A program made the translations under genes and the position numbers. Below are positions 8,507 to 54,496 of a stretch of 64,000 bases of DNA, piece after piece. Position 1 is the first letter of the stretch. Every line of letters starts with the position of its first letter. Source of the DNA: Synechococcus sp. C9 (GTDB lineage Bacteria > Cyanobacteriota > Cyanobacteriia > Gloeomargaritales > Gloeomargaritaceae). The notes under the pieces are model-generated. The model was not told the DNA's origin. It saw only the letters and a program-made list of their open reading frames with translations, and searched no databases. The stretch is from NCBI RefSeq assembly GCF_022984075.1, contig NZ_JALAAD010000001.1, forward strand, positions 1,034,455 through 1,098,454, in the 5' to 3' direction.

Positions 8507-8577
8507 GGAGGTGAGTCGTTGACTTTGCGAAGATTAATTCAACCCTGATCGAGCATAACAGAAAAATCTTTGAGTAC

Positions 8578-42598: not shown

Positions 42599-42864
42599 GC
42601 CCGACCTCCTTTTTGGTGCAAGCGATGGACAAGTTGGTTGTAGTGGGTGAACCATTCCCGCCAGTAGGTGTTGAAATCCTCCAACTGGTAGGGGGAATTG
42701 TTGACAAAAATGCCGCCGCAGGGATATTCCTTCAAGCTGTGACAGCGGTCGCATAACTTGGCATCGAGTTGATAGTGGTGGTTACGGTATTGAATCGCCC
42801 CCCGGGGACACCGGGCACGGCACTCCGCCCAACTCATGTATTGATTAGTGGCTGTGTAGGGCAT
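42595..42864 (-). CDS. fdxN: FdxN-type nif ferredoxin with lost cluster cysteines
   Basis: 89 residues from the ATG at 42864 (GGAGG upstream), between nifB and nifS, where cyanobacteria carry fdxN. The N-terminus [20 protein letters not shown] aligns with the C-x2-C-x2-C-x3-CP motif, but Tyr9 and Trp12 replace the first two cysteines. In [17 protein letters not shown] the fourth cysteine is Phe53. Five of the eight ligands remain (15, 19, 38, 41, 49). The C-terminal tail [16 protein letters not shown] resembles the tail of extended FdxN proteins. It probably cannot hold two normal [4Fe-4S] clusters. The frame is intact and coupled to nifB and nifS by overlaps. Confidence 0.8.
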
Positions 42865-44278
42865 GATCCACCTCCATTTGGGTGCGCATAAACTGGGTGT
42901 AAAACTTGCGGGCGACGGTTTCAATTACGTCGTAATCTTCAAAGGGTTCAATCCCGCTCTTTCTTAATTTTTCCTGGGGACAACTGCCAATTTTGGAACA
43001 GAGCACACCCCGACAATCACTAATCGTTTGGATGATATTTTCCAAAGTTGCCTCTTCCCCATAACCGCTTTGGCAATAGTGATCGATCTTGCGATGGCTG
43101 ACGAAGTTGACCGTATTCCCATCCACTTCATAGATGAGAAATTCCTTCGCATGACCGAAGTGTTGATTGACCAAGCCACCGCCTTTGCTGGCAACGGCAA
43201 CCAAAATTTTGGGAGTGGGTTTGACATTTTTGCCCTGAAGTTTGGCTTTTTGTTCTGCCAATTCCATTTTTCGGAGTTCGATGCGGGTATGCGCCAACCG
43301 CCGCTGTTCCGTATCGTATTCGGGTTGCATGGTCATGAATTTCTCTTTGGTGAATTCCTGGGAGCGGTCTTCCCCTAATAAACCCACCGCATCCGCCCGA
43401 CACTGGCGACAATGGCGCATCATTTTCATATTGCCCGCGCACCTATCCTGCAATTCCTTCAGTTCCTTGGGGGTGGGTCCCCGCTGTCCATTTAGCCCAA
43501 AATAAGTGCCATGTTCTGGTGCGGAAATCAGGGGCATAATGTTATGCAAAAATGCGCCCCGCTCCCGAATCACCCGATTCACTTCCACCAAATGCTGGTC
43601 ATTAATGCCGGGAATCATCACCGAATTCACCTTGCAGAGAATGTCCGCTTCCTGGAGTGCCTGCAAACCTTCCTGTTGCCGTTCGAGGAGGATTTTCACC
43701 CCTTCGATGCCCTTAATCCGCTTTCTCTGCCAGCGAATCCAAGGATAAATGCGAGCGCCAATTTCTGGGTCAACGGTGTTAATCGTGATCGTCACATGGT
43801 CAATGTTCAGTTCCTTGATTTTGTCCACATAGTCCGGCAAATTTAAGCCATTCGTAGAAAGGCAGAGTTTAATATCCGGGGCTTTTTCGGCAATCCGAGC
43901 AAAGGTTTCAAAGGTCTGTTTGGGATTTGCCAAGGGATCGCCAGGACCCGCAATGCCCACCACCGTCATCTGCGGAATTTTGCCCGCAATCACCAGTACC
44001 TTATGGGCGGCTTCCTCTGGGGTCAGGGTTTCGCTCACCACACCAGGGCGGCTCTCATTGGCACAGTCATATTTGCGATTGCAATAATTGCACTGAATGT
44101 TACACGCCGGGGCGACGGCAACGTGCATCCGGGCGTAATGGTGGTGCGCCTCCTCGCTATAACAGGGATGCTTGGCAATACGCTCCTTGATACGTTCATC
44201 CCGACTGGCGAGGGTATCGCCGAGATTTTGTTGGGTACATCCGCAATTTTTAGCGGCATTAGCAGGGGGGGGAGTCAT
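42845..44278 (-). CDS. nifB: Nitrogenase cofactor biosynthesis radical SAM protein NifB
   Basis: 477 residues from the ATG at 44278. NifB builds the carbide-containing NifB-co. Seen: radical-SAM motif CNIQCNYC (Cys59, Cys63, Cys66), [51 protein letters not shown] (second cluster Cys), and a C-terminal NifX-like domain (about 370-460, [20 protein letters not shown]). An in-frame start 30 nt upstream (44308) is also possible; neither has a strong ribosome site. It is the first gene of the minus-strand nif block, and its end overlaps fdxN by 20 nt. Confidence 0.97.
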
Positions 44279-44378
44279 GGATAGAGTGCCTGTACGAATC
44301 GATTGCACTCGTTATAACACCGCCCCCTTTTGCCGACGGACATCCCCCTGGAAATAACTTGATTAAACCTATTAAAAA

Positions 44379-44913
44379 TGTACTCAGCCCTCCAATCCCT
44401 ATGCCCCGGGGACATTGATTTTTCTTTTGCCCTAGAGAACGGGTATATTTCCAGGCAGAGTCAGGATATATCTGCGGATTTTTGAGATTAAATGCACTCA
44501 GCCAAACCCTTGGCTGGCAAGGATTTCAGGGATAAATCGCCACCGTTTATCAGTGTACTCACCCCCACCTAATCCACTGGTTAAACCCTCCACTGACTTC
44601 TGTATAAATAGTAACATAATCCCCGCAAATGGTTACATAAGATACCAAAAATAATGTTAAATTTCTTCTCTGTCGGGCATCTGGTAGTCAATAATACAAA
44701 TTAGGGTGAGTACAGCCTATTCACCGGCACATTTCCCCGTTGATACGGATGGGGATGAACGTTGCGTTGAGTACACATATTCCTACTTCGGCAACCGGAA
44801 ATCCATAGAAAACTGCGGAAAACACCCGTACCTGCCCCTGGGATGAGGGGGAGTGCGGGCGAGAACATGGCTTCGGATGGGAGTTTGGGGGATTGGTGCC
44901 CCAGATGAGTACA
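44379..44913. promoter_or_regulatory. Five TGAGTACA octamers, candidate regulator sites
   Basis: Exact copies lie at 44379-44386 and 44554-44561 (minus orientation) and at 44707-44714, 44768-44775 and 44906-44913 (plus). Several share flanking bases (GGGTGAGTACA at 44554 and 44707). Copies nearest nifB point toward nifB and copies nearest the plus genes point toward those genes. Binding protein unknown. Confidence 0.6.
44632..44645. promoter_or_regulatory. NtcA-like site (weak)
   Basis: GTT-N8-TAC, one mismatch from the NtcA consensus GTA-N8-TAC, about 350 bp before nifB. On the minus strand a TACTAT lies 18 nt past it, closer than the usual 20-24 nt. Confidence 0.3.
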
Positions 44914-45008
44914 TTGCAATAAATCCAATAAAACGATTGGGACTTGGTGCCGGAGCTTAATGCGAGACACTTGCTATAACCAAGCCATCCCATTACGGAG
45001 TTTGATTC

Positions 45009-45260
45009 ATGCCAGAGTATGTCTTGACCGACCGCATTGATTCCCTACCCATTGGGGAGCGGTGGAATGTGCGTTTGCGTTTGGAAGAACTAGCGATTAG
45101 TTGCGAATGCCGGAAAGATGGTTTGCTGGATATTCACATCAAGAATGCCGACGAAGCATTGTTAGTCCGCATGATTCTTTTGCGGCACCAGACCGCCCGC
45201 CCGCAACATTTGGCGTGGTTAGAACGATGTTGGCATTTATCCCCTGTTTCAGGAGTCTAA
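45009..45260 (+). CDS. Asr1405/Asl0597-type small nif-cluster protein
   Basis: 83 residues. RWNVRLRLEELAISCECRKD and ARPQHLAWLERCWHLSPVSG match the small cyanobacterial family represented by Asr1405 of Anabaena, found in nif clusters and of unknown function. Cys and Trp positions (ISCEC, LERCW) are conserved as I recall them. It is the first plus-strand gene after the regulatory region and leads toward nifV. Confidence 0.75.
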   Translation: MPEYVLTDRIDSLPIGERWNVRLRLEELAISCECRKDGLLDIHIKNADEALLVRMILLRHQTARPQHLAWLERCWHLSPVSGV

Positions 45261-45264
45261 AACC

Positions 45265-45348
45265 ATGACCACCGTTACTTTTTTGGTAATTTACCTGTTG
45301 ATTTTTTGGTTGTTTCTCAAAGGCATGTTTGGGAATCAACTCAAATGA
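45265..45348 (+). CDS. Tiny membrane-protein ORF (27 aa)
   Basis: ATG to TGA encodes MTTVTFLVIYLLIFWLFLKG and then MFGNQLK: one membrane helix with a short basic/polar tail. It starts 4 nt after the Asr1405-type stop and overlaps the next small ORF in ATGA, a translational-coupling layout. No clear ribosome site precedes it apart from AGGAG about 12 nt upstream. I do not recognise the family. It is not an obvious b6f or photosystem small subunit. Confidence 0.5.
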   Translation: MTTVTFLVIYLLIFWLFLKGMFGNQLK

Positions 45349-45413
45349 TTGACCCTCAATTGCTAGGCATCATGCCTTGGTTAATCATCTCGTTTGTGAT
45401 CAATCATGATTGA
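45345..45413 (+). CDS. Tiny ORF (22 aa) overlapping nifV start
   Basis: ATG at 45345 overlaps the previous TGA (ATGA) and encodes MIDPQLLGIMPWLIISFVIN then HD, a hydrophobic peptide ending inside the nifV 5' end. The first 13 nt, ATGATTGACCCNN, repeat at the nifV start (45406). It may be a translated coupler or leader for nifV, or a relic of a start duplication. Confidence 0.3.
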   Translation: MIDPQLLGIMPWLIISFVINHD

Positions 45414-46542
45414 CCCAATTATCATCAACGATACCACCCTAAGAGATGGGGAACAGACCGCTGGGGTTGCTTTTAATGTGCGGGAAAAATTAGCCATTGC
45501 CCGTCTATTAGACCAAATTGGCATTCCCGAATTAGAGGTAGGCATTCCCATCATGGGGGGCGAGGAGGCGGAAGCGATCAAAGCCCTGGTGCAAGCGGGA
45601 TTAAACGCCCGGTTACTCGGCTGGAATCGCTGTAAAATTTCCGACCTGGAAGCCTCCCTTGCCTGTGGGCTGCAACGGGTGCATATTTCCGTGCCCGTAT
45701 CGGATGTGCAAATTGCCGTCAAATTTCACAGCAACCGCTGGGCGATGCTTGCCCAACTGAAAAAATGCATCGAGTTTGCCAAAGCCCACGGGCTGTTTGT
45801 GGCGGTCGGGGGGGAGGATAGTTCCCGGGCAGACCCGGCGTTTCTCCTGGACGTTGCCCGCTATAGCCAAGCCTGGGGAGCGGAGCGATTTCGCTTCTGT
45901 GATACGGTGGGGAGACTTGACCCCTTTGCCACCTACGCACAGATTGAACAATTGACCAGCGCCCTGGAGATTCCGGTGGAAATGCACACCCACAATGACC
46001 TGGGAATGGCGGTGGCGAATGCGTTGGCAGGCATCAGAGCCGGGGCGCGCTCGGTGAATACCACGGTGAATGGGTTAGGAGAACGGGCGGGGAATGCGGC
46101 ACTAGAGGAAGTCGTGATCGCCCTCAAGGAACTCTATGGCATCAAATTACCCATCCGCACGGAGCGTTTTTGGGAACTCTCCCAGGTGGTTGCTCAAGCC
46201 GCCAATTGCCCGCCCCCGTTGTGCAAACCCGTGGTGGGTGAAAACACCTTTTCCCACGAATCGGGGATTCATACCCACGGTCTTTTGGTGAATGCCTGCA
46301 CCTACGAACCCTACCCCCCCGAAGCGGTTGGGCGGCAACGCCGGTTTGTGATTGGCAAACATTCGGGTACCCATTTAATCATTTATCTCCTGCAACAGGA
46401 GGGCATCCAGGTTACTCCCCCGCAAGCCCGGGCGATTTTAGCCATCGTGCGCCGTCGGGCTACGGAATCCAAACGGGGGTTATCCCTAGCGGAGTTAGTG
46501 GAAATTAGTCAACACATTCGTCAAACCCTGGAGGCATCCTAA
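45406..46542 (+). CDS. nifV: Homocitrate synthase
   Basis: 378 residues. NifV condenses acetyl-CoA and 2-oxoglutarate to homocitrate, the organic ligand of FeMo-co. Seen: [20 protein letters not shown] (catalytic Arg and metal Asp), [20 protein letters not shown] (HxH metal ligands), [20 protein letters not shown] and [11 protein letters not shown]. It is followed by nifZ after 1 nt. Confidence 0.96.
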
Positions 46543-46543
46543 A

Positions 46544-46843
46544 ATGAGCCGTTCAGAAATGGAACTCGATGCACCCCCAGTTTTTGAAATTGGTGAGAAA
46601 GTCCAACTGACCAAAACCATCCGCAATGACGGCACTTTTTCTGGTCGGGAACTGCGGGATATTCTGGCTCGCAAAGGCGACGTGGGCTATGTTGTGGCGA
46701 TTGGTACCTTTTTACAATCCTTCTACATCTACAGCGTGCATTTCATTGAGTTGGGGATTGTGGTGGGGTGTCGTGCCTCTGAATTGGCATCCCTAGCCGG
46801 GGAAAAAAGTCACACTGGATACCAAAATCCAGAAAAGTCTTAA
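46544..46843 (+). CDS. nifZ: NifZ-domain protein
   Basis: 99 residues. FEIGEKVQLTKTIRNDGTF, RKGDVGYVVAIGTFLQSFYI and YSVHFIELGIVVGCRASELA fit the NifZ domain, a small SH3-like fold involved in P-cluster maturation of the MoFe protein. It is 1 nt after nifV, hence translationally linked. nifT, often next to nifZ, is not seen. Confidence 0.9.
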   Translation: MSRSEMELDAPPVFEIGEKVQLTKTIRNDGTFSGRELRDILARKGDVGYVVAIGTFLQSFYIYSVHFIELGIVVGCRASELASLAGEKSHTGYQNPEKS

Positions 46844-46926
46844 AAAATAGTAAATATGCTTACTAGATGACAGAAAATTATGGGTTCAGGCGATTAGAGT
46901 CTAAACTACTTTAACCGTAACCAATA

Positions 46927-48423
46927 ATGGCTGACCCGAATGTGAATTGCGGGATTTGCCCCGTCCAAACCTTCAGGACACAGGAGGCGGAGGGGTATGT
47001 AATACCAGAACCGATTACCCTTTCACCGGTGGATTCAGCTTGCCAACAGGTATCTTCCTGTCTGAGTCATTGGTTCACCGTTCCCCAAGGTAAACCCGCC
47101 TCAATTGACTATCCCCAAGCCAATATCACGCTCTATCAAAATGGGAAAAATCAGCCCTTTGCCTCCTGTTTGGTGATTTGGCAAGCCTGTCATGTGATGA
47201 CCCAAAGACCATACCAGCACTGGCAACCCGCCGGGGAATTCATGACCTATGAATATGAAAGCCGAGCCGGTCGGTTGATTTATCGCCTGCCACGTCAGGG
47301 AGCAAAAAATCGGGATATGCGGGTGGTTTTGATCCATTTATTCCTAGCCGCCTGTGCCACCCAAAAAGCCCGTCCTTGGGAAGAAGAAATTGTGATTAAT
47401 GACCGGATTATTGCTGAATTTTTGGGGCTAAATCAGCGCAAGGATATGAATCGGGTGAAAAAATTGCTTTTAATTGAATCTTTGGTCAGACAAGCCTGCG
47501 AATTAGAAGTGGAAATCCATTGGCAGGCAAAAGGCAGGATCAAGGCATTTCATCTACCTGCGGAACCCCTCTGGTTTGCCCGCCCCACCTACCATCTCAC
47601 CACCACCGAAGACGGTTCCCATTATCTGAGTGGTTTATCGTTCCGAGTGTTAGCAGGTCGTTGGTCAACCTATTTTTTGAATCCCCAACAGGCACGGAGC
47701 AAAACCGCCTATTACCAATACGGGTGTCTGCCCATGTCTTTGCCCCCCAAAATCATGTATCTCTGGCAACGGCATGAGGGGGCGGTGGTGATGTTACTGC
47801 ATTTCCTATTTCGGTTACGAGTTGGGCAAGACCGCAGTGCCAAAATTGCTACCCTATTAAAACTCATCTATGGGGAAGAATCTCTGCAAATTGCTTGGTA
47901 TAAATCCGACGTGCGGCGCAAGTTAATGACCAGCTTTGAAGCCGATTTAGAACAGCTATTTTACTACGGCATCAAGCCCCTATTTGAGAACAGTACCTAT
48001 CCTGAGTTCATTCAACCCTGGTGGGTAAGTGCCCAGAATTTACCGGATGATCCAGAGGAAGCACTGAACTACTGGACAGAAGTAGCTCAGGCAGAAAAAG
48101 CCATGATCAACTCGAAGCAAAAATGGTCCCAACTCTTAAATGCGGCGATTACCATTCGGGAATTTCCCGAGGATTGGCAAGCGGAAACCCCTAAAAAGGA
48201 AATAAAATCCAAAACCAGCCGTAAAGCCACCGCAGTTCATTCGCTCACGGGAGCCATGATCAAACAAGCCAGACTCCGGCAAGGCATTAGTCAAAGACAG
48301 CTTTCTACCCTGTTGCATAAAAGTCAAAGCTGGATTCGTGATATTGAATCGGGGAGATATAAAATCAAACCCAAAGATGTACAACTTCTTGCTTCCGTGC
48401 TGGTGGATTTACCCCATCCATAA
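46927..48423 (+). CDS. Large protein with C-terminal HTH (XRE type), unknown
   Basis: 498 residues. The N-terminus has several cysteines (NCGICPV, SACQQVSSC) without a ferredoxin pattern. The middle (YEYESRAGRLIYRLPRQGAK, FLGLNQRKDMNRVKKLLLIE) is unfamiliar and somewhat like plasmid replication-initiator winged helices. The last 55 residues are a Cro/CI-type helix-turn-helix: IKQARLRQGISQRQLSTLLH then QSWIRDIESGRYKI. It follows nifZ by 83 bp in the same direction. It is not CnfR/PatB, which has an N-terminal bacterial-type ferredoxin domain. A nif regulator is an inference from position and the HTH. Confidence 0.7.
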   Translation: MADPNVNCGICPVQTFRTQEAEGYVIPEPITLSPVDSACQQVSSCLSHWFTVPQGKPASIDYPQANITLYQNGKNQPFASCLVIWQACHVMTQRPYQHWQPAGEFMTYEYESRAGRLIYRLPRQGAKNRDMRVVLIHLFLAACATQKARPWEEEIVINDRIIAEFLGLNQRKDMNRVKKLLLIESLVRQACELEVEIHWQAKGRIKAFHLPAEPLWFARPTYHLTTTEDGSHYLSGLSFRVLAGRWSTYFLNPQQARSKTAYYQYGCLPMSLPPKIMYLWQRHEGAVVMLLHFLFRLRVGQDRSAKIATLLKLIYGEESLQIAWYKSDVRRKLMTSFEADLEQLFYYGIKPLFENSTYPEFIQPWWVSAQNLPDDPEEALNYWTEVAQAEKAMINSKQKWSQLLNAAITIREFPEDWQAETPKKEIKSKTSRKATAVHSLTGAMIKQARLRQGISQRQLSTLLHKSQSWIRDIESGRYKIKPKDVQLLASVLVDLPHP

Positions 48424-48717: not shown

Positions 48718-51048
48718 ATGTCCCCAAAGGAAGGGAAACCTATGGGCAAAGAAGGCTTGGAAGCAGGATTTTTGACAGACAATAATTTGGCAGAACTTCC
48801 CTCCAAGGAGGGGGGGAAATTGAGAGCAGAGTGGCAAGGATTTCAGCCAAATGTATGGAATGAAAGGGTTGATGTCCGGGACTTCATTCAAACCAACTAC
48901 ACTCCTTACACGGGGGATGGTGCCTTTTTAACAGGACCAACCGATCGGACGGCAAGGCTTTGGGCACAGGTCAAGGAACTCATGCGCCAAGAACGGGAAA
49001 AAGGGGTGCTGGATGCGGATACGGCGGTTCCTTCTAGCATCACTGCCCATGCCCCTGGCTACATCGATCGGGAATTGGAACAGGTGGTCGGACTGCAAAC
49101 GGATAAGCCCCTCAAACGTGCCATCATGCCCTTTGGCGGAATTCGCATGGTCAAAAGTGCCCTGGAGGCATACGGTTATCAGCTTGATCCCCAAACGGAG
49201 GCGGTCTTCACCAAGTACCGCAAAACCCATAACGACGGGGTGTTTGATGCCTACACGACGGAAATGCGCAACTGTCGCCGATCGGGGATTATCACCGGTC
49301 TGCCCGATGCCTATGGACGGGGACGGATCATCGGGGACTATCGCCGGGTGGCACTCTATGGCACGGAGTTTTTGATCAAGGACAAGCAGGAGCAACTGCG
49401 CTCCCTGGAAGGCAATGTCATGGATGAGCCGACCATTCGCCTGCGGGAGGAACTTTCTGAACAAATTAAAGCCCTGAAAGAATTGCAACAGATGGCACAG
49501 AGTTACGGGTTTGACATCAGCAAGCCGGCGGCGAATGCCAGGGAAGCCTTCCAGTGGCTCTATTTTGGCTATTTGGCGGCGGTGAAAGAACAAAACGGAG
49601 CCGCCATGTCCTTGGGTCGGGTGTCCACGTTCCTCGATATTTATTGCGAACGGGATTTGGCACTAGGGCTGATCACCGAAGCGGAAATCCAGGAGTTGGT
49701 GGATCATTTTGTGATGAAGCTCCGTATGGTGCGGTTCCTGAGAACGCCCGATTACAACGAACTGTTTTCCGGCGATCCCACTTGGGTTACAGAAGCGATC
49801 GGGGGTGTGGGAGAAGATGGCAGACCCCTGGTGACCAAAAATAGTTTCCGGTTTTTGCAGACCCTCTACAATCTGGGACCCGCCCCGGAACCCAATTTGA
49901 CAGTGTTGTGGTCAGAACAATTACCCGACAACTTCAAACGTTTCTGCGCCCAAACTTCCGTTGATACCAGTTCCATCCAATACGAGAATGACGACCTGAT
50001 GCGTCCCTACTTCGGGGATGACTACGGCATTGCCTGCTGTGTGTCGGCGATGCGGATCGGTAAGCAGATGCAGTTTTTTGGTGCCAGGGTAAACTTAGCA
50101 AAAGCACTGCTCTACGCGATCAACGGCGGCAGGGATGAAAAGTCGGGGGATCAGGTTGCTCCCGTGATGAATCCAATTACCGACGCAGTGCTGGATTTTG
50201 AGGTGGTGAAAGCCCGATTTGCAGAGGTCATAGCCTGGTTAGCCCGCACCTATGTGAATACCCTCAATGTGATTCACTATATGCACGACAAGTACTGCTA
50301 TGAGCGCATTGAGATGGCACTCCACGATCGGGATGTGTATCGCACGATGGCGTGTGGGATTGCGGGGCTGTCGGTGGTGGCTGATTCCCTGTCTGCGATT
50401 AAGTACGCCCAGGTGCAACCCATTCGGGACGACCGGGGTTTAGCCATTGACTTCAAGATCGAGGGCAGTTATCCCACCTACGGCAACAACGACGACCGGG
50501 CGGATGAACTGGCAGTCTGGGTGGTGCAGACCATGATGAATGCCCTTAGGCAACAAAAGACCTACCGAGATGCAGTGCCGACCCAATCGGTGTTGACCAT
50601 TACTTCCAATGTGGTCTATGGCAAAAAGACGGGCACGACCCCCGATGGACGCAAAGCCGGTCAACCCTTTGCCCCCGGTGCCAACCCCATGCACGGGCGG
50701 GACTGTTGCGGTGCGCTGGCTTCTTTGGCTTCTGTTGCGAAGTTGCCCTACCAGGACAGCTTGGACGGCATTTCCAATACGTTCTCCATCGTGCCCAAGG
50801 CGTTAGGGCGCACGGGAGCCGAACAGGTGAGCAACTTGGTGAATATGCTGGACGGCTATTTCCACGACGGCGGGCATCACTTGAACGTCAATGTACTGCA
50901 ACGGGAAACCCTCCTGGATGCGATGGAACATCCGGAACAGTATCCCCAACTCACCATCCGGGTATCGGGTTATGCGGTCAACTTTGTCAAACTTACCCGT
51001 GAGCAACAGTTAGATGTCATCAGCCGCACCTTCCACGACCGGTGTTAA
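48718..51048 (+). CDS. pflB: Pyruvate formate-lyase
   Basis: A glycyl-radical enzyme that splits pyruvate with CoA to acetyl-CoA and formate under anoxia. 776 residues. Seen: [20 protein letters not shown], the adjacent active-site cysteines in [12 protein letters not shown] (about residues 439-442), [20 protein letters not shown], and the radical glycine loop [15 protein letters not shown] near the C-terminus. The first 35 residues are an unusual lead; an ATG at 48742 with AGGAAGGG upstream is an alternative start. pflA overlaps its 3' end. The enzyme is oxygen-sensitive, so it should work only in the dark or in anoxic mats. Confidence 0.96.
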
Positions 51049-51763
51049 GGGCAAAATCCATTCCTTTGAGAGCATGGGGACGGTGGATGGTCCCGGTATC
51101 CGCTTTGTGGTGTTTACCCAGGGCTGTCCCCTCCGATGCCTCTACTGCCACAATCCCGACTGTCGGACGATCTATGGCGGCAGGGAAATCACCGCAGGGG
51201 AAGTGCTTGCCGAAATCCAAAAGTACCGTTCCTACCTGAGGGGCGGCGGGGTGACGGTGAGTGGCGGCGAACCCCTGATGCAACCGGAATTTGTTTCCGC
51301 CATCTTTCAAGGTTGCCACGAGTTGGGACTCCATACCGCCCTGGATACCTCTGGCTATTGCCCCGTTGAAGTTGCCCAGCCCGTTTTGGATCATACGGAT
51401 TTGGTGCTGTTGGATATTAAATCCTTTGATCCCCAAATTTATCAGCGGGTGACCCATGTTTCCCTGGAGCCAACCCTGGCGATGGCAAGGCATTTGAACC
51501 GGATTCATAAACCTACCTGGATTCGGTTTGTGTTGGTGCCCGGTCTGACCGATGCGCCCCATAACATTGAGGGATTGGCGGATTTTGTGGCGACCCTTGA
51601 CAATGTGGAGCGGGTGGAGGTCTTGCCCTTTCATAAAATGGGGGAATACAAATGGGAACAGTTGGGTTTGAACTATTTATTAAAAGATACGCCCGAACCG
51701 GAGGAATCCTTAATCAACCAAACCAAAGCCACTTTCCGATCACGAGGACTATTTACCCCTTGA
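51014..51763 (+). CDS. pflA: Pyruvate formate-lyase-activating enzyme
   Basis: 249 residues. The radical SAM enzyme that installs the glycyl radical on PflB. Seen: [20 protein letters not shown], cluster motif [13 protein letters not shown] (C-x3-C-x2-C), [15 protein letters not shown] and [10 protein letters not shown]. The ATG at 51014 overlaps pflB by 35 nt. AdhE follows after 78 bp. Confidence 0.96.
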
Positions 51764-51841
51764 TCCCAATCAGAAGCTGAAGTTTCCTAGCAGAAAAGTA
51801 AAAACGTTTGTAGCCTAAAGATAGGCAAAGGAGGAACTGAG

Positions 51842-54496
51842 ATGCGCGTCACTGATGAAGCAACCTTAAATGAATTGATTGCCAGAGTCAAAGTTGCTCA
51901 GGAAGCGTTCGCCACCTTTTCCCAGGCGCAGGTTGACCGGATTTTCCAGCAGGCGGCAATTGCGGCGAATGAAGCCCGTATTCCCCTGGCGAAAATGGCG
52001 GTGGCAGAAACCGGTATGGGCATTGTGGAAGACAAGGTGATCAAAAATCACTTTGCCTCGGAGATGATCTACAACAAATACAAAAATGAAAAAACCTGCG
52101 GGGTGATCGAAGAAGACAAACATTTTGGCATTCAGAAAATTGCCGAACCCGTTGGCATTTTGGCGGGCATTGTCCCTACGACCAATCCTACTTCTACGGC
52201 TATTTTTAAGGCATTGTTAGCCATCAAAACCCGCAATGCCATTATTTTTTCCCCCCACCCCAGAGCCAAAGCCTGCACGATTGAAGCCGCCCGCATTGTC
52301 CTCAAAGCCGCCGTTGCCGCCGGTGCTCCCGATCCGATCATCGGCTGGATTGATGAACCCACCGTGCCCCTGTCCCAAGCCCTCATGCAACACCCAGACA
52401 TTAAACTGATCCTGGCGACGGGGGGACCTGCAATGGTCAAAGCCGCCTACTCCTCCGGGCATCCCTCCTTGGGGGTAGGGGCAGGCAATACCCCCGCCCT
52501 GATTGATGTGAGTGCCGATATACCGATGGCGGTCAGTTCCATTCTGCTGAGCAAAACCTTTGACAATGGCACGATTTGTGCTTCGGAACAGGCGGTGATC
52601 GTGGTGGAAGATATTTATGAATCAGTGAAACAGGAATTTGTCCGGCGGGGTGCCTACATTCTCTCCCCCGAAGAAGTGGCGAAAGTGCGGCAAATTATTC
52701 TCCAGGACGGCAGATTGAATCCGGCGATTGTGGGACAACCGGTGGAGCACATTGCCCAGTTGGCGGGCTTTACGGTGCCCCAGGGGACTCGGTTGTTAAT
52801 TGGCGAAGTGACCGAAGTCGGGGAACATGAACCCTTTTCCTATGAGAAACTATCGCCGATTTTAGCCATGTATCGGGTACCCAATTTCCGAGCCGGGGTA
52901 GAAATTGCCGCCCAGTTGGTGAATTTTGGCGGTAAGGGACATACGGCGGTGCTCTACACCGACCCTGCGAACCGGGATGACCTCGCCTATTTTGAACACC
53001 ATGTCGCCGCCAGTCGGGTGTTATTAAATACGCCTTCTTCCCAGGGGGCAATTGGGGATTTGTATAACTTCAAACTTGACCCTTCCCTCACTTTGGGTTG
53101 CGGCACTTGGGGCGGTAATTCTATCTCGGAAAACGTGGCTCCCCACCATCTGCTGAATATCAAAACCGTGACGGAACGGCGGGAAAATATGCTGTGGTTC
53201 CGGGTGCCCCCCAAAATTTATTTCAAGTTTGGGTGTCTGCCGGTGGCATTGCAGGAATTGCAGGGGAAAAAACGGGCATTTCTGGTTACCGACAAGCCCC
53301 TATTTGATATGGGAATGCTCAAGGAAGTGGAGGACATTTTGGAAGACCTGGGGATCGAGTTTCAAACCTTCTATGAAGTGGAACCCGACCCGACCCTGAC
53401 GACGGTGGAAAAAGGTTTAGCCCGGTGTCGCAGTTTTAACCCCGATGTGATCATTGCCTTTGGCGGCGGTTCACCGATGGATGCGGCGAAGGTGATCTGG
53501 CTGATGTATGAACATCCTGAGGTGGAATTTTCCGGGGTTGCCATGCGGTTTATGGACATCCGCAAGCGGGTCTATGCCCTGCCCACCCTGGGACAAAAGG
53601 CGATTTTGGTGGCGATTCCCACCACTTCCGGTACGGGGTCAGAAGTCACGCCCTTTGCCGTTGTGACCGATGATAAAACCGGCATCAAATATCCCCTGGC
53701 GGATTACGCCCTCACCCCCAATATGGCAATCGTTGACCCGGAATTGGTGATGAATATGCCCAAGAAACTCACTGCCTACGGGGGGATTGATGCCCTTACC
53801 CATGCCATTGAAGCCTACGTTTCCATCTTGGCGACGGAATTTACCGAGGGCTTGGCACGGGAGGCGATTCAACTGTTATTTGAATATCTACCCAGGGCGT
53901 ACAAATTGGGAGCCAAAGACCCCGTTGCCAGGGAAAAAGTCCACTATGCCGCCACGATTGCGGGGATGGCGTTTGCCAATGCCTTTTTAGGGATTTGTCA
54001 CTCTTTGGCACACAAACTCGGCTCCACCTTCCATGTGCCGCACGGTTTAGCCAATGCCCTGATGATCTCCCATGTGATCCGCTACAACGCCACCGATGCC
54101 CCCTTCAAGCAGGCGATTTTCCCCCAATACACCTATCCCCACGCCAAGCAACGCTATGCGGAAATTGCCGACTTTCTCCACCTGGGCGGGCGCACGGAGG
54201 AGGATAAGGTCGAGCGGTTGATCCATGCCATTGAAAACCTCAAACAGGAACTCGATATTCCCCTTTCCATTAAGGAAGCACTCCCGGATCGGGAACGGGA
54301 ATTTTATGAAAGCGTGGAAAAAATGGCAGAGCAAGCCTTTGACGACCAATGCACGGGGGCAAATCCCCGTTATCCCCTGATGCGGGACCTGAAGGAGCTG
54401 TACATCCTCTCCTACCAAGGGTGCCGCCTGGAGAGTGCCCTCTACCATCAAGCGGATAACTGGGACAACTTGGCGGTCACCACCACCGATGGTTAA
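51842..54496 (+). CDS. adhE: Bifunctional acetaldehyde-CoA/alcohol dehydrogenase
   Basis: 884 residues. The N-terminal CoA-acylating aldehyde dehydrogenase (about 1-440) has GILAGIVPTTNPTSTAIFKA and the catalytic Cys in DNGTICASEQAVIV (about residue 249). The C-terminal iron alcohol dehydrogenase (about 455-870) has IIAFGGGSPMDAAKVIW, PTTSGTGSEVTPFAV, GGIDALTHAIEAYVS and GICHSLAHKLGSTFHVPHG with iron-binding histidines. It reduces acetyl-CoA to ethanol, re-oxidising two NADH. GGAGG precedes the ATG. Confidence 0.97.
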   Translation: MRVTDEATLNELIARVKVAQEAFATFSQAQVDRIFQQAAIAANEARIPLAKMAVAETGMGIVEDKVIKNHFASEMIYNKYKNEKTCGVIEEDKHFGIQKIAEPVGILAGIVPTTNPTSTAIFKALLAIKTRNAIIFSPHPRAKACTIEAARIVLKAAVAAGAPDPIIGWIDEPTVPLSQALMQHPDIKLILATGGPAMVKAAYSSGHPSLGVGAGNTPALIDVSADIPMAVSSILLSKTFDNGTICASEQAVIVVEDIYESVKQEFVRRGAYILSPEEVAKVRQIILQDGRLNPAIVGQPVEHIAQLAGFTVPQGTRLLIGEVTEVGEHEPFSYEKLSPILAMYRVPNFRAGVEIAAQLVNFGGKGHTAVLYTDPANRDDLAYFEHHVAASRVLLNTPSSQGAIGDLYNFKLDPSLTLGCGTWGGNSISENVAPHHLLNIKTVTERRENMLWFRVPPKIYFKFGCLPVALQELQGKKRAFLVTDKPLFDMGMLKEVEDILEDLGIEFQTFYEVEPDPTLTTVEKGLARCRSFNPDVIIAFGGGSPMDAAKVIWLMYEHPEVEFSGVAMRFMDIRKRVYALPTLGQKAILVAIPTTSGTGSEVTPFAVVTDDKTGIKYPLADYALTPNMAIVDPELVMNMPKKLTAYGGIDALTHAIEAYVSILATEFTEGLAREAIQLLFEYLPRAYKLGAKDPVAREKVHYAATIAGMAFANAFLGICHSLAHKLGSTFHVPHGLANALMISHVIRYNATDAPFKQAIFPQYTYPHAKQRYAEIADFLHLGGRTEEDKVERLIHAIENLKQELDIPLSIKEALPDREREFYESVEKMAEQAFDDQCTGANPRYPLMRDLKELYILSYQGCRLESALYHQADNWDNLAVTTTDG

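Follow-up and report, generated by a model that had tools for sequence, protein, structure and literature searches.

The nifB-nifV intergenic region

The window (the whole 64-kb stretch of DNA that was analysed) carries nifB on the minus strand and, divergently from it, an operon running from 45009 to 48423 with the gene order Asr1405-nifV-nifZ-cnfR, cnfR being last. The initial annotation had described a divergent nifB/nifV region; the divergence holds, but the first right-hand gene is an Asr1405/Asl0597-family ORF, with nifV after it. The genes and sequence features of the locus are listed below, with octamer sites numbered 1 to 3 on each side.

42845..44278, minus strand: nifB (TIGR01290), ATG at 44278; target gene
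44311..44319, minus strand: nifB extended -10, TGTTATAAC, 67 bp from site 3
44379..44386, minus strand: nifB-side site 3, TGAGTACA, exact; 114 bp from site 2
44493..44500, minus strand: nifB-side site 2, TGAGTGCA, diverged sixth copy; octamer variant aligned in other Gloeomargarita-type loci
44554..44561, minus strand: nifB-side site 1, TGAGTACA, exact; 61 bp from its partner, site 2
44602..44615, no strand assigned: NtcA-like box A (tentative), GTATAAATAGTAAC; recognisable in most of 8 Gloeomargarita-type loci
44632..44645, no strand assigned: NtcA-like box B (tentative), GTTACATAAGATAC; GTN10AC conserved in 7 of the 8 Gloeomargarita-type loci
44684..44697, no strand assigned: GTAN8TAC match (tentative NtcA box), GTAGTCAATAATAC; otherwise only in the nearest relative, G317
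44707..44714, plus strand: nifV-side site 1, TGAGTACA, exact
44768..44775, plus strand: nifV-side site 2, TGAGTACA, exact; 61 bp from site 1
44906..44913, plus strand: nifV-side site 3, TGAGTACA then AATAAATCCAATAAA; 138 bp from site 2
44972..44980, plus strand: nifV-side extended -10, TGCTATAAC, 66 bp from site 3
45009..45260, plus strand: Asr1405/Asl0597-family ORF (NF045598), first gene of the divergent operon
45406..46542, plus strand: nifV (TIGR02660)
46544..46843, plus strand: nifZ (PF04319)
46927..48423, plus strand: cnfR orthologue; product has a C-terminal XRE-type HTH and lacks the ferredoxin module

A 27-residue hydrophobic ORF (45265-45348; MTTVTFLVIYLLIFWLFLKGMFGNQLK) lies between the Asr1405-family gene and nifV. 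Downstream of cnfR, genes judged from their sequence to be pyruvate formate-lyase-, activating-enzyme- and bifunctional AdhE-like (48718-54496) make up what looks like a fermentation cluster adjoining nif.

Exact motif counting bore out the earlier claim of five exact octamers in ~535 bp, and recovered the diverged sixth copy at 44493 (TGAGTGCA, minus strand), the partly shared flanks and the extra copy at 8571 (plus strand) that had been reported with them. The proposed orientation split of two versus three is correct for exact copies but not overall, the copy at 44493 making it 3+3. The octamers thus form two mirrored triads of same-orientation blocks, one per divergent nif promoter: 44554/44493/44379 on the minus strand, upstream of nifB, and 44707/44768/44906 on the plus strand. 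Downstream of each triad, at a fixed distance, stands an extended -10: TGTTATAAC at +67 and TGCTATAAC at +66.

In the 64-kb window, TGAGTACA was found 6 times against 0.60 expected, the sixth exact copy (8571) lying outside the array. The genome-wide count suggested by the initial annotation yielded 72 copies in 2.96 Mb, so that 0.012 copies are expected per 535 bp; the Poisson P(≥5) in 535 bp is ~2e-12 for one place fixed in advance. No second stretch within the window held any 8-mer five times in ~700 bp. Paired octamers occur nowhere in the 2.96-Mb genome other than at these two nif promoters, and an octamer with a -10 at the observed distance was likewise confined to them genome-wide. Scanning around the operon for terminators and promoters gave no signal above chance level.

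Conservation and spacing of the octamers

The octamers proved to be kept both in related strains and upstream of cyanobacterial nifB. Neither of the two outcomes that the initial annotation had named as refuting its reading, a random genome-wide distribution at similar local density or a lack of conservation in related strains, was observed. TGAGTACA was present upstream of nifB in 87 of 95 cyanobacterial regions from many families and in the majority of 52 scanned loci from named cyanobacteria, and at least two TGAGTRCA copies were present in 89/94 cyanobacterial regions, with 0 copies in 26 regions upstream of non-cyanobacterial nifB. Across cyanobacterial loci, three copies recurred, all oriented like nifB and at conserved distances. 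In a phylum-wide sample of 291 genomes, 43 had paired octamers, the reversed control pattern giving few matches. In the eight Gloeomargarita-type loci, the octamers stand as conserved islands amid diverged intergenic DNA, some copies being missing in some strains. A site-3 matrix built from other families only ranked 44386(-) first and 44906(+) second on the window; with the octamer masked, 44386 remained near the top and 44906 was absent among the listed matches. The flanks of the window octamers agreed only partially with those of other families.

NifB identity to same-genus genomes, where NifB was present, was 76-99%, and the best named relative was Gloeomargarita sp. SKYG116 (77% identity). 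In G317 (L219), the third right-hand octamer (window 44906) is deleted. Two genomes placed in another family, f26 (G450 and G482, with loci L112 and L114), carry a nifB 83-87% identical to that of the window together with a Gloeomargarita-type cnfR, pointing to horizontal transfer of the nif cluster or to misplaced assemblies. Mirrored octamer sets also occur in other cyanobacteria, and L126, L135, L137 and L142 have a divergent-side element with two octamers only 10 bp apart.

Spacing between same-orientation copies fell into discrete classes. In a family-collapsed list, the first spacing was 61-62, 70-74 or 84 bp and the second 113-118, 126-129, 138-139 or 146-149 bp, with no spacings between these classes; other locus sets contained two outliers, one of 80 and one of 58. 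The classes step by ~11 bp, or one helical turn (61/72/84 for the first spacing; 115/127/138/148 for the second), and the window spacings of 61, 114 and 138 bp all fall within them. Because the loci share ancestry, P values from Rayleigh tests are descriptive only, and the argument rests on the gaps between classes. The ~11-bp classes suggest that the helical phase of the copies is conserved; such whole-turn spacing classes appear to be new here, with no earlier description found in the literature searched. The -10 pattern TGNTATAAC lay 66-68 bp (rarely 63-65) after site 3 in most nifB promoters with 113-118 bp spacing and was not found in promoters with a 126-128 bp second spacing. In Leptolyngbya boryana, 76 bp separate the element from the start site downstream of it, a distance that agrees with 66-68 bp to the -10.

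A CnfR orthologue without the ferredoxin module

The 498-residue protein encoded at 46927 showed ~40% identity to ~530-residue nif-linked proteins of nif+ cyanobacteria. Its homology to canonical CnfR members extends over most of its length (E 1e-79 to 1e-110), with 33-39% identity over the middle and the C-terminal XRE-type HTH (PF01381, E 1.8e-9). The canonical nif-linked proteins combine an N-terminal 2[4Fe-4S] ferredoxin module with a C-terminal XRE HTH, which matches the published description of CnfR (PMC8510180). Because the window protein is homologous to proteins fitting that description, it is, judged by sequence, a CnfR orthologue. CnfR and the HTH protein at 46927 had earlier been offered as alternative candidates for the regulator; CnfR stands, but the two are one protein.

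The two N-terminal 4Fe-4S motifs were found in none of the eight Gloeomargarita-type CnfRs (L218-L225), compared with 22/22 of the other cyanobacterial CnfRs examined, and we therefore use the label CnfR orthologue rather than typical CnfR. None of the eight has the CxxCxxCxxxCP pair; they retain four cysteines ahead of residue 50, mostly as CxxCP plus Cx5C, together with the HTH stretch KSQSWIRDIE. Identity to canonical members was highest in the HTH (0.48), intermediate in the middle part (0.40) and lowest at the N-terminus (0.18). The window protein accordingly resembles the CnfR/PatB activator in its nif linkage and in orthology over the middle and C-terminal XRE-HTH, and differs from it in lacking the 2[4Fe-4S] module, with four N-terminal cysteines (C8, C11, C39 and C45; CxxCP, Cx5C) remaining. 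In L. boryana, CnfR needs the ferredoxin module to activate nifB (PMC8510180); since this module is missing, Gloeomargarita-type CnfR may behave unlike those studied. A ferredoxin-less CnfR lineage appears to be described here for the first time, no earlier description having been found in the literature searched.

A CnfR orthologue was present in all 34 nifB-bearing genomes searched, and was not found in G239 and G327, the nearest genomes that gave no nifB match; paired octamers were also not found in G239. No second CnfR was found in the source genome, the 46927 protein being its sole CnfR-family match. As for a separate ferredoxin-bearing CnfR, none of the Fer4_7 matches inspected resembles CnfR: the one in the longest frame is GlcF-like, and another has the look of an epoxyqueuosine reductase. 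The genome's second HTH_3 match is a short XRE protein, and an initial search of nifB loci for CnfR by motif found nothing.

In the closest relative, G317 (NifB 99% identical), an insertion (L219:2720-3830) splits cnfR and detaches the HTH; the insertion has inverted ends, a transposase-like 330-aa ORF and a short target repeat. The remaining Gloeomargarita-type genomes have an intact, nif-linked cnfR.

Identity of the array and proposed regulation

Upstream of nifB lie three conserved cis elements believed to bind CnfR; nifB1 expression drops by 75% when two of the three are deleted, and promoters of this kind have no -35 but an extended -10 (PMC8510180). Compared by layout rather than by motif letters, the window array resembles the nifB/nifP element of L. 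boryana and CS1-CS3 of Anabaena variabilis nifB1/nifB2 in its three upstream blocks, divergent nif promoters, extended -10 and accompanying CnfR (PMC8510180; PMC5943405). It differs from them in its first spacing (61 bp, usually 70-74), in its second spacings (114 and 138) and in having a complete triad for each direction. The letters of the published elements (motifs I-IX, CS1-CS3) are reportedly given in Tsujimoto 2016 and Vernon 2017, and a literature search found no paper printing the octamer in a nif-element context. The octamers are most likely the known CnfR cis-element, an identity drawn from layout, location and promoter type rather than from a comparison of published letters; the array would then be a fresh example of a known cyanobacterial nif activator element, ordinary in kind, whose regulator is a variant. 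We consider it highly probable that two CnfR-type activator elements, one per nif direction, have these octamers as their cores; this supports the earlier proposal of a regulator array serving both directions and distinct from an NtcA site.

It is unlikely that another regulator reads the array because the local CnfR, having lost its sensor module, is a relic or binds differently. The missing module in all eight Gloeomargarita-type CnfRs and the split cnfR of G317 speak for this reading; the conserved HTH with KSQSWIRDIE, the intact and nif-linked cnfR of the other Gloeomargarita-type genomes and the single CnfR-family match in the source genome speak against it.

NtcA-like boxes at 44602, 44632 and 44684 stand between the two triads, and a perfect GTAN8TAC box, GTAAATATGCTTAC, lies at 46850-46863, 77 bp before cnfR. 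The same 14-mer is found unchanged 75 bp before cnfR in the diverged L221 and is absent in other relatives. The region thus resembles NtcA-activated promoters (GTAN8TAC) in its boxes, whereas the octamers themselves are off the NtcA consensus. In other families, NtcA-like boxes showed no enrichment upstream of site 1 (5 observed, 8.8 expected), and are therefore lineage-specific at best; that they could supply nitrogen control is a lead only. That the octamers are sites of NtcA or another global nitrogen regulator is very improbable: the boxes share the intergenic region with them, but TGAGTACA does not fit GTAN8TAC, its clusters occur only at nif promoters in the source genome, and in the genomes checked it occurs together with nifB and CnfR. 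An origin by chance or as a dispersed repeat, to which the 72 genomic copies might point, has the slimmest probability of all and is refuted, since both the octamers and their spacing are conserved across many families; the Poisson value and the mirrored triads also stand against it.

With the octamers read as CnfR-type elements, one element would serve nifB and the genes after it, and the other Asr1405-nifV-nifZ-cnfR, each built of three TGAGTRCA copies that share orientation and helical phase, plus an extended -10 downstream at a set distance. In all likelihood, CnfR (46927-48423) contacts every octamer through its XRE-type HTH; occupancy of the three sites would then bring RNA polymerase to the extended -10. 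Because cnfR lies in the right-hand operon, CnfR probably activates its own operon in a positive feedback, and the NtcA-like boxes between the triads could add a nitrogen-starvation signal. Placement of cnfR inside an operon expected to be activated by its product differs from studied CnfR/PatB systems; in L. boryana, cnfR expression is independent of CnfR (PMC5943405), whereas feedback is expected here.

On balance, we lean towards a picture in which the nif master activator of the Gloeomargarita lineage has lost its oxygen-sensor ferredoxin while retaining four respaced cysteines and an unchanged DNA-reading helix; it would still work through phased octamer triads, whose copies shift only by whole turns, and would drive its own operon. 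A rebuilt single cluster or thiols would then do the oxygen sensing, unless CnfR plays no part in it. The two-cluster ferredoxin of CnfR is thought to confer its oxygen response, and Gloeomargarita are the closest known cyanobacterial relatives of plastids. The compact, genome-unique array, tied to a named activator, offers a testable rule for cyanobacterial nif promoters (an octamer core, ~11-bp phase and ~66 bp to the -10) that would be useful for transferring nif genes to other hosts, and the ferredoxin-less Gloeomargarita CnfR would make it possible to test directly if CnfR owes its oxygen response to the Fe-S module.
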